DNA from: Fibrobacter sp.
GTDB taxonomy: Bacteria > Fibrobacterota > Fibrobacteria > Fibrobacterales > Fibrobacteraceae
NCBI GenBank assembly: GCA_017503015.1
Contig: JAFVTX010000017.1
Location: forward strand, 1-35,820
Reading direction: 5' to 3'
Length of the DNA stretch: 35,820 nucleotides
This document shows positions 16,482 to 19,178 of the stretch, piece by piece. How positions within the stretch are numbered: the first letter of the stretch is position 1; each line of letters opens with the position of its first letter. A program made the translations under genes and the position numbers. The notes under the pieces are model-generated. The model had not been told where the DNA came from. It was given only the letters and a program-made list of their open reading frames with translations, and did not search any database.

Positions 16482-18806
16482 TTATTGTTCATCCTTGAGG
16501 CAGCGGATATAAGCCCCGTAGTACTTGTCGTCGTAACCCAAAGGTGCAGCGTTGTCGTCGCTTCTAAACAGTATGTAATAAGAATCAATGTCGCTGTATG
16601 CCGTGGCGCTCCAAAACAAAGTCATTTGCCCTACTCTAGAGAAGTAACCATAATACACGCCACCAGGCAATGCCGAAAAGCCAAATTCATCTGTGCCGTT
16701 CCAGCCACTAGCGGACTTGAGTACCTTACCCGCAGATGATTGCCCTTTGACTTCCGTAAACAGCGTTTGAAACTCCGATTTGCTCGGAATGTGCCAGCCT
16801 TCGGGGCAAATTCCACGCACAGGGTATGTCGGAGTACAGGACTTATTATATCCGCAATTCTTTCCATGCGTACTCCATTTGCCAGCACTATCCATCGCGG
16901 CAGCCCAAGTGTACAATCGACCATATTTAGCACAGCTATCCAGGCTATTGTTGTAACACCAATTTCGGCTCTTATAATTTGTGGTGTCTGCATAATTTAG
17001 GTTTTCTGCCATCCATGTCTGGCTTCCGATGACGACAGTTCTATAAAGCTTCTGGTCTCTTTCATCCAACATAAAACCATCACGAATCTTGAGCTCGCCC
17101 ACCCACAAATTATTCGTACATGTGTAGATAGAGTCTAATCCGTTTGATATGGGTTTGCGAATTTCATTTTCATCCGTATAACTGACGCAACCTTTGTTCA
17201 GGGACAATTCCTGCTCATTTGCAACTCTAAAGGTTCCTGCATCGCACACGTATTTATTTGAAGCTACAACTTTGCCAGCGACAATTGAGCCGTCTTTCAG
17301 GCAAGTTTTACCATAGGTGTCATACTCCAGTATAGTCGCTGTTCCCCAGGCGTTGTTCTTACAGACGTAATAAGTGCCGTCATACTTGCTTACCACACCT
17401 GCGTTACTATTTTGGCAAAGGCCTATGGCGGTTTCCCTTTCAGAAACTTCCCATTTGGAGCCGTTGCAAATATATATGGTGTCTGTTACGTCTCCTTTCT
17501 TGAACTCGCCCGTTTTACCTGTGGCCCATCCATAGGTGTCCTTCTGGAAAGTGGTCGCGGGATTCCACTGGCTACCGTTACAGATAAAATACTTGTTGTA
17601 ATTCTCGCTCAACTTGTTGCTGTTCGGAGCAACGACATCCTTACGGTTGACAGAGCATCCACCCAGCCCATATACGTTGTTCCAATAGATGTCCAGGTAG
17701 GTCTCGTAAGCGGGGATATCCAGGATATTCCAGCTTTTCACGGAAGCCTTAATGGTGCTGTAGTTAAAGTCATAAGCCCAGTCCGCCATGGATGCCTTTG
17801 TCTGCAAGTCATTCCATTCGCCGTCGGTCTTGATGTCAGCAATGAACTTGTCTATGGTGTTTTGAATTTCGGCATCGCTACGGTTGCCCATGACCAGCGC
17901 CGAAATCGCAAGGAGGGATGCATTGCCCGCGCTGGTGGTCGCGCTCACTCCCTCGTTCTGGAAGATGGCGAAGTCCTCGGAATAGGTCACGGCGGTCGCA
18001 AACTCAAATGCCGTCATGATTTCTTGCGCAGCCTGCTTTTTCGCGGCATAGACGCTGTAGCCCTTCTCCTGCACCAGATAAAGGGCTCTGTCGTATTCCA
18101 GGTGGGTCAACAGGTTGATGTTTACATCTGTCCGTTCTTCAGAAAAGTCGGTCAAGGCACGGAGCGTCATGGAATCGGCGGACCATTCGCCCGTTACCTC
18201 GTTCCTATAAAGGCCGCGGACTTCAAGTTTTGCGTAGGGGTATGCGAGGCTCACCTTGGGAATCACGAAATCCCCCTTGTTGCTGGAGATTTCGTCCTTG
18301 TAAACGGTTCCAGAAGGGGTCAGGTTCTTCTTTAATTCATACAGGTTCAGCGGTGAGCCGAACTTGAAAGGCCCTTTCTGTGCAACCCCCGTCACGGAAA
18401 TGTTCTCCCGGACAAAGCCTTCGGGTACATCCGTATCGCTGTTATTACTGCTGCTGGATTTAGTGTCGTAATCCGTTTTGCCAGAGGACATATCCGATGA
18501 GACTTCGCTCAGGTCCACCCAAGAGTTATTTTTGCAAAGGTAGTCCGTCAACTTTTCGGCGACATAGACCGTATCGCCCTCGCGTTCGCTGGTGCAGCGG
18601 CCCATATCGACAAGGGTCGCCACTTCACGGCCATCATCGACTCCTTCGGCTGGTTCAGAGCCCTTGACCCCCGAACCGCTGTCTCCCCCGCAGGCGGCAA
18701 AGAGAAGAGAGAAGGAAAGAACAGCAATGGATTGCTTCACCCCTACGGGGTGCGCAATGACGTTCTTGCTAGAGACGTGAGTATTTATCTTTCTGTTCCA
18801 AGCCAT
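16482..18806 (-). CDS. FISUMP-domain lipoprotein (774 residues)
   Basis: The best start is the ATG at 18806 (MAWNRKINTH), which has GGAGG five bases upstream; a frame four codons longer exists. An unusually long N-terminus precedes the lipobox (LLFAAC, Cys 39). After a Ser-rich linker comes the shared module (SVTGVAQKGPFKFGSPLNLY, KLEVRGLYRNEVTGEWSADS, NDLQTKASMADWAYDF), then two short repeat units, then the FISUMP domain (DERDQKLYRTVVIGSQTWMA .. IRCLKDEQ). First gene of the FISUMP set; the structured RNA at 18883-19108 lies directly upstream on the same strand and may control it. Confidence 0.87.
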   Translation of the reverse strand: MAWNRKINTHVSSKNVIAHPVGVKQSIAVLSFSLLFAACGGDSGSGVKGSEPAEGVDDGREVATLVDMGRCTSEREGDTVYVAEKLTDYLCKNNSWVDLSEVSSDMSSGKTDYDTKSSSSNNSDTDVPEGFVRENISVTGVAQKGPFKFGSPLNLYELKKNLTPSGTVYKDEISSNKGDFVIPKVSLAYPYAKLEVRGLYRNEVTGEWSADSMTLRALTDFSEERTDVNINLLTHLEYDRALYLVQEKGYSVYAAKKQAAQEIMTAFEFATAVTYSEDFAIFQNEGVSATTSAGNASLLAISALVMGNRSDAEIQNTIDKFIADIKTDGEWNDLQTKASMADWAYDFNYSTIKASVKSWNILDIPAYETYLDIYWNNVYGLGGCSVNRKDVVAPNSNKLSENYNKYFICNGSQWNPATTFQKDTYGWATGKTGEFKKGDVTDTIYICNGSKWEVSERETAIGLCQNSNAGVVSKYDGTYYVCKNNAWGTATILEYDTYGKTCLKDGSIVAGKVVASNKYVCDAGTFRVANEQELSLNKGCVSYTDENEIRKPISNGLDSIYTCTNNLWVGELKIRDGFMLDERDQKLYRTVVIGSQTWMAENLNYADTTNYKSRNWCYNNSLDSCAKYGRLYTWAAAMDSAGKWSTHGKNCGYNKSCTPTYPVRGICPEGWHIPSKSEFQTLFTEVKGQSSAGKVLKSASGWNGTDEFGFSALPGGVYYGYFSRVGQMTLFWSATAYSDIDSYYILFRSDDNAAPLGYDDKYYGAYIRCLKDEQ

Positions 18807-18882
18807 GACGGCCTCCATCGGTTAAAACCTGTGGAGTTTCGCCTTGTCCCTGGAAAACACGACCCCAATTTTGTATAAAAAA
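18807..18882 (-). other. Leader between the RNA terminator and the first FISUMP gene
   Basis: These 76 bases carry only the second copy of the GGACAAGGCGAA repeat (minus strand) and the GGAGG ribosome site. No separate promoter box is evident here, so the FISUMP genes may depend on readthrough of the terminator. Confidence 0.4.
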
Positions 18883-19063
18883 GGGGTGCGGGTTCGTTGC
18901 GTTTACCTAAACGGGGCTCTAGACTTGCCTCAAACCGATAAACGCAAACGTCCCGCGCCCCAAAAGGGCGACAGAACCGCAAAAAGCGGTTTGTCGAAAC
19001 ACGCCAAAAGAACCATACAGGTATGGCTCCAAAAACGCGTTCACGCGAGCGTTCGCCTTGTCC
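18838..19063. repeat. 12-bp direct repeats TTCGCCTTGTCC
   Basis: Exact copies at 18838-18849 and 19052-19063 lie 214 bp apart, one in the leader next to the FISUMP gene and one inside the structured RNA. They could mark an insertion or a shared pairing site. Confidence 0.6.
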
Positions 19064-19108
19064 TCGGTTTTAGAAACTGTCTAGATTTCGTTTAGAGGGC
19101 AAGAGCAA
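18883..19108 (-). ncRNA. Candidate structured noncoding RNA or attenuating leader
   Basis: Read on the minus strand, a TATATA box (19120-19115) would start an RNA near 19108. The 3' end is a strong terminator: arms 18952-18961/18883-18892 (10 pairs) and 18939-18947/18897-18905 (TTTGCGTTTA type, 9 pairs), followed by TTTTTT. Its 33-base loop is almost wholly complementary, in nested order, to the 5' part of the RNA: 19089-19095 with 18907-18913, 19079-19085 with 18918-18924, and 19065-19070 with 18932-18937 (7+7+6 pairs). That is a long-range pseudoknot or a switch. Between lie hairpins AACCGC-AAAAA-GCGGTT and CCATAC-AG-GTATGG. It may be a free small RNA or a regulated 5' leader of the FISUMP genes. 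It does not match tmRNA, RNase P, SRP or 6S motifs I know. Confidence 0.55.
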
Positions 19109-19154
19109 AAACTCTATATATCCAAAATAAATATAACTTTAATTTAGGCAAAAT

Positions 19155-19178
19155 GCACCAAAAATTTACAAAAGGTGC
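19155..19178. promoter_or_regulatory. GCACC-N14-GGTGC inverted repeat upstream of the RNA
   Basis: GCACC (19155-19159) and GGTGC (19174-19178) face each other about 40 bp upstream of the -10 box of the candidate RNA. It could be an operator; evidence is its symmetry and position only. Confidence 0.3.

Follow-up and report, generated by a model that had tools for sequence, protein, structure and literature searches.

A candidate transcription-attenuation leader RNA family before defence and surface-protein operons of Fibrobacteraceae

Layout of the element before the FISUMP genes

The window, a 35,820-nt stretch of a Fibrobacter sp. genome (contig JAFVTX010000017.1), carries two consecutive FISUMP (Fib_succ_major) genes on its minus strand, preceded by a structured element. 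The initial annotation of this element had noted a terminator whose loop is matched by three separate blocks near the 5′ end of the RNA. All three blocks, both terminator arms and the run of six T were found in the sequence, in nested and collinear order. We also identified a fourth block, GCGAACGCTCGCG (19056-19044), absent from that annotation, which is complementary to the 5′ arm of the terminator (18957-18944). The features of the window copy are as follows, with pairing frequencies and compensatory changes taken from an alignment of 56 copies.

19116..19170, minus strand: conserved promoter-like block TTTTGTAAA..TTTTTG .. TTTTTAAGTTATTTTTAA.. (consensus of 79 anchored copies)
~19116-18877, minus strand: whole element
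19102..19115, minus strand: P1, small 5′ hairpin AGAG(UUUUUG)CUCU (sequence and fold)
19095..19103, minus strand: P2 5′ strand CUUGCCCUC (P2 paired in 98.7% of cells)
19095-19089, minus strand: block a, CTAAACG, partner a′ (99.7% paired, compensatory change at 5/7 pairs)
19085-19079, minus strand: block b, TCTAGAC, partner b′ (98.5% paired, compensatory change at 5/6 pairs)
19070-19065, minus strand: block c, AAACCG, partner c′ (91.7% paired, compensatory change at 6/6 pairs)
19057..19065, minus strand: P2 3′ strand GAGGACAAG (alignment)
19044..19056, minus strand: d, antiterminator 5′ strand GCGAACGCUCGCG (d/d′ 98.9% paired)
18962..19043, minus strand: variable middle domain with hairpins, missing from minimal copies
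18937..18961, minus strand: terminator 5′ arm (terminator helix 94.8% paired across copies)
18944..18957, minus strand: d′, antiterminator 3′ strand, within the terminator 5′ arm (alignment and fold)
18937-18932, minus strand: c′, CGGTTT (swap test and alignment)
18924-18918, minus strand: b′, GTCTAGA, in the loop of a small hairpin P5 (AGGC..GCC) (swap test and alignment)
18913-18907, minus strand: a′, CGTTTAG (swap test and alignment)
18883..18907, minus strand: terminator 3′ arm, t (sequence and alignment)
18877..18882, minus strand: U-run of six T, conserved among copies
18833..18851, minus strand: post-terminator segment AGGGACAAGGCGAAACUCC, a partial repeat of P2′-d
16482..18806, minus strand: first FISUMP (Fib_succ_major) gene
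16460-13275, minus strand: second FISUMP gene

The AT-rich block lying 5′ of the RNA is conserved and resembles a promoter, and block b sits in the loop of a hairpin, P3 (GAAA..UUUC). A simple terminator scan missed the window terminator because its 33-nt loop exceeds the loop limit of the scan. The collinear matches, which had been thought hard to obtain by chance, indeed exceed it: when Watson-Crick blocks of at least 6 pairs each are sought between the RNA's 5′ region and its 33-nt terminator loop, the native sequence gives a nested chain of 21 pairs, a chain of 14 was reached by 45 of 5000 dinucleotide shuffles and one of 20 by none. The 246-nt minus strand folds with a z-score of -6.67 relative to shuffled sequences. 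REP-like palindromes (GTCATTGCGAG ... AAGCAATC) are present at 18773-18730, inside the FISUMP gene, and again in the variable middle of L038, L042, L050, L059, L063, L068 and L075.

Distribution of the family in Fibrobacteraceae

Homologues of the element were sought first by DNA similarity, and a 291-bp query matched 36 of 37 genomes of the genus, its own included. We then used a covariance model (R1) built on the 3′ half of the element; the E-values of such home-made models are rough. R1 detected the element in 78 of 80 genus genomes, at 1-19 copies each, and in all 40 of those of good quality. Across the phylum it was positive in 88 of 168 genomes, all belonging to four genera of one family (Fibrobacter and three sisters). 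The window genome alone has ten R1 matches on the sense strand and eleven matches to the 5′ half. The element is thus a family, of which at least 130 distinct copies were gathered; copies were de-duplicated by sequence, several loci from different collections being from the same genomes.

The exact core pattern was found in 103 stretches among 84,980 species; among the matches listed, all are from Fibrobacter, Fibrobacteraceae or Fibrobacterales bar two contigs. These two (L133, L139) are short, carry the leader and come from rumen MAGs labelled Bacteroidales; we took them for contamination, transfer being also possible. A phage origin was considered and dropped, no match being found among phage records or in IMG/VR.

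That the RNA fits no known structured class agrees with a covariance-model search against Rfam 15, in which only a tRNA in the window exceeded the gathering threshold and a permissive scan gave chance-level matches. Nor did the T-box covariance model match the element. By comparison with Rfam the family is therefore previously uncatalogued; a 2017 survey of 224 candidate RNAs may hold the motif outside Rfam.

Two conserved uses of the same blocks

To examine the loop pairings copy by copy, the longest helix that each block forms with its own partner was compared with helices formed after partners were swapped among copies. In 58 distinct copies the own-partner means were 6.78 (a), 6.95 (b) and 6.90 (c), against 3.4-3.9 for swapped partners, and 0 of 2000 permutations came near the own-partner values. 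The blocks occur in 24 to 46 different sequences per side, so the pairing anticipated in the initial annotation is retained through compensatory change. On this comparative evidence the a, b and c matches are true helices: own partners pair and swapped ones fail. One clear exception is L065:3060-3309 (G001:C43), where a, b and c all lack their long-range pairing at once; it looks like a chimera in which recombination or misassembly joined the 5′ half of one copy to the 3′ half of another. Within genomes (G000, G001, G016, G020, G033) block a was shared in 0 of 77 copy pairs, against 4.9% between genomes, and blocks b and c gave no difference between the two. We do not claim orthogonality of a, b and c within a genome, as orthologous copies between genomes may explain the figures for block a.

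The 56-copy alignment (A4) excludes L065, and its pair columns were set from L090. The OFF structure, comprising P2, P3, a/b/c, the middle hairpins, the terminator and P5 (83 pairs), has 93.3% of its cells paired and both-side changes in 48 of the 83 pairs. Such changes fill 468 cells, against 131 in shuffles, and the covariation score is 0.383 compared with 0.196 when shuffled and at most 0.096 when slid. P2 itself shows compensatory change at 4 pairs. The ON structure is paired in 93.9% of cells with a covariation score of 0.445, against at most 0.091 when slid.

Comparison of the copies shows that the apical part of P2, a-P3(b)-c, is complementary to the terminator loop c′-P5(b′)-a′, and that d is complementary to the terminator 5′ arm, with a gene on the same strand about 70 nt further on. 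Since the partner of d is the 5′ arm of the terminator itself, terminator and antiterminator are mutually exclusive. With d/d′ formed, a, b and c pair in ordinary nested fashion within a single rod, and this rod is the computed minimum free energy (MFE) fold of the window copy. The pseudoknot proposed earlier therefore stands as far as its loop pairings are conserved, but it is one of two conserved uses of the same blocks, the antiterminator fold having been overlooked.

Across its 13 pairs, d/d′ varies little in full-length copies, with compensatory change in only two. At one position A-U was exchanged in step for G-C three times, and at another G-C for A-U, also three times. An own-versus-swapped test on d/d′ had no discriminating power, d and d′ being almost constant. 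Most of the comparative support for this helix is the near-absence of breaks together with its form in minimal copies. The middle domain is missing from diverged copies, found in the window genome and especially in the sister genera, and d/d′ is a short-loop hairpin there. RNAalifold recovered the rod unaided from 19 such minimal copies, with both-side changes at 15 of 33 consensus pairs. In minimal copies the 3′ strand of P2 has two possible partners, its own 5′ strand (mean longest run 9.4) and the linker after d′ (6.9), and therefore P2 and the full rod compete; in principle, P2 may coexist with both folds.

Five copies were folded with pseudoknots left unscored, so the energies do not indicate the default state. 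The window copy gave -95.2 kcal/mol for the rod and -87.8 kcal/mol for the terminator, and in two copies the corresponding values are close (-90.3/-91.9 and -79.4/-80.1 kcal/mol). The rod remains the MFE in three of the five copies; in the other two the terminator beats it, only late in transcription.

Downstream genes and the regulatory reading

A device of the FISUMP operon had been one suggestion for the element, which the wider set of copies does not support. FISUMP genes make up only 36 of 126 first genes (20/63 and 16/63 in two samples), and many copies precede restriction-modification or other defence genes. The leader is not a general FISUMP element either, because the window genome has 80 Fib_succ_major matches and only ten leaders, most of its FISUMP genes being without one. 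Behind the leaders, mainly of the diverged short and tandem forms, lie restriction-modification systems of types I, II, IIG and III, DISARM-like helicases (DrmD/SNF2) and candidate defence genes. Other first genes encode cytosine-5 and N6/N4 DNA methylases, MmeI, SPFH, zinc-ribbon/TM2, collagen and transglutaminase-like proteins, and second and third genes include type II restriction enzymes and PADLOC candidate systems. In a set of 42 first genes, mostly of diverged copies, Pfam matches included C5-methylases (8), N6_Mtase (5), N6_N4_Mtase (5), EcoRI-type methylases (4) and D12 methylases (4), one protein possibly falling in several families. Again mostly behind diverged copies, Pfam found HsdM domains, and PADLOC named systems of types IIG and III as well as an HKD+Snf2 helicase and a type II restriction enzyme. 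By our own count from coordinates, with fragments merged, a leader stands directly before about 10 of the 34 C5-methylase genes and 9 of the 17 N6_N4_Mtase genes in six genomes.

The window element probably serves the FISUMP operon as its 5′ leader and belongs, as one copy among many, to a new Fibrobacteraceae family of cis-acting transcription-attenuation RNAs. Its unusually large intrinsic terminator stands 5′ of a same-strand gene and is opposed by a conserved, mutually exclusive antiterminator; the best reading of the comparative data is that of an attenuation leader common to defence and surface operons. The nascent RNA would adopt one of two folds. In the OFF state P2 and the terminator would form, and a, b and c would hold their loops together in a kissing contact. 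In the ON state a single long rod, a-b-c-d/d′-c′-b′-a′, would take up the terminator 5′ arm and RNA polymerase would read on.

The long accessory operons in the cargo, the conserved 5′ box and the start of the element near a promoter would also suit a processive-antitermination RNA, similar to phage HK022 put or the Bacillus EAR / LoaP leader, that modifies RNA polymerase, the terminator being a checkpoint within the element. Many methylase operons are moreover preceded by two tandem copies, a second, 3′-incomplete 5′-half copy often lying about 270 nt past the first. We consider this account unlikely: no similar box was found in the rRNA leaders of relatives, and local rather than processive control is suggested because the terminator's own arm joins the alternative fold. 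Second 5′-half copies were seen at L089:3420-3505, where there is no obvious U-run, and at L245-L249, L263, L265, L271, L273, L275 and L276. Nus/boxA antitermination through the 5′ box GCUCUUGUUCUC was rejected as a separate candidate, as no such box precedes the 16S genes of relatives; CTCTT was absent from the 16S leaders of G159 and from the short G081 leader.

A riboswitch class with a small-molecule ligand, such as a sensor of a methyl donor or a nucleotide in view of the DNA methyltransferase cargo, is similarly improbable. The terminator/antiterminator platform, the many copies per genome, the tandem copies and the conserved core are all compatible with it, but conserved positions lie nearly all in helices with no obvious pocket left, the cargo does not form a single metabolic pathway and no Rfam riboswitch matched.

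It is still less probable that the pseudoknotted terminator alone matters, as a fixed and very stable stop, with d/d′ a by-product of duplicated terminator sequence. EndoU-type nuclease genes lie behind leaders L252, L267 and L280, and L252 and L267 would fit such a stop, as they retain a, b, c and the terminator, have a shortened d/d′ helix and fold with the terminator as MFE. The 98.9% pairing of d/d′ in 56 copies, its A-U to G-C exchanges in step and its uninterrupted hairpin in minimal copies speak against a by-product.

The initial annotation had allowed for either a small RNA or a leader controlling readthrough; a leader is probable. With gene calls made as simple ORFs, the downstream ORF that spans +500 shares the element's strand in 113 of 113 testable copies, and the first ORF starts a median of 71 nt after the U-run, which argues for a cis leader rather than a free sRNA. 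Upstream ORFs are of mixed orientation (36 same, 63 opposite). Trans-acting small RNAs merely located before genes, their U-run marking the RNA end, are thus very doubtful, compact and highly structured as the element is, with a promoter-like block in front and a strong terminator behind, since this uniform orientation and narrow gap, the conserved antiterminator pairing and the conservation past the terminator all count against them. The conserved sequence runs up to the ribosome-binding site and includes the partial P2′-d repeat. CUCC..GGAG occurs in 59 of 114 copies and in none after shuffling, and the post-terminator CUCC could pair with, and cover, the Shine-Dalgarno GGAG. In 63% of copies the post-terminator segment can form at least 8 pairs with the CUCUUGUUC strand at the 5′ end, compared with 10% after shuffling.

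As an attenuator, the element resembles classical attenuators and terminator-type riboswitches in being a 5′ leader in which an intrinsic terminator just before the first gene gives up its 5′ arm to a mutually exclusive antiterminator. It differs from them in its 33-nt terminator loop complementary to an upstream hairpin, in having no leader peptide or known aptamer, and in a cargo of defence and surface genes instead of one pathway. EAR / LoaP leader and put RNAs are also structured and act in cis, favouring transcription through long accessory operons; the element has no Rfam match and its terminator arm belongs to its own switch. The RNA of type III toxin-antitoxin systems (ToxI) is pseudoknotted and set in the order promoter - RNA - terminator - gene. 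The element shares the pseudoknot and this layout, without the short RNA repeats, and no ToxN-like gene, as a type III toxin-antitoxin system would have, was among the commonest Pfam and PADLOC families listed behind the leaders.

The regulators that we found described for keeping defence operons quiet and for activating them are proteins or antisense RNAs. BrxR/CapW WYL-domain regulators, which are DNA-binding proteins, adjoin many different phage-defence systems (PMC9122601, PMC9122588). Here too one type of regulator accompanies many defence systems, as RNA and by analogy only. For restriction-modification, control by C proteins, methylase feedback and antisense RNAs is known (PMC3874152). 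The present element would likewise keep gene expression in check, with one RNA family serving types I, II, IIG and III. A text search of that review found no riboswitch, and one of a 2025 review (PMC12707154) neither riboswitch nor attenuation. Our literature searches found no paper on FISUMP and none joining phage defence with riboswitch, leader RNA and antitermination.

Given that so many unrelated accessory operons have the element in common, a pathway metabolite is less plausible than a shared factor or state. A shared trans-acting signal (a protein, a ligand or a physiological state such as infection) would make the choice for all copies at once, so that operons for restriction-modification, for other defence and for surface proteins would answer to a single input. 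We tentatively suggest that one RNA switch family could be the common on/off control of the immune repertoire of the whole bacterial family, standing before every type of restriction-modification system as well as before other defence operons and genes of variable surface proteins. It would respond to one shared cue, for example infection, and so be in RNA form what the WYL-domain defence regulators are as proteins. Immune control would gain a new layer if one RNA attenuator were in use ahead of many restriction-modification and defence operons that are otherwise unrelated. Such an attenuator would also be a small and convenient model of competition between a kissing-loop terminator and an antiterminator, and searching behind the leader would allow unknown defence genes to be discovered in Fibrobacteraceae. 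At L209:396-2210 a gene resembling by eye GIY-YIG + DUF2075 helicase follows the leader and a TPR protein, possibly an unrecognised defence operon. In L070, L079, L087 and L089 the leader is preceded, at a distance of about 200 nt, by divergently oriented genes that by eye resemble RhuM or ORF6N.
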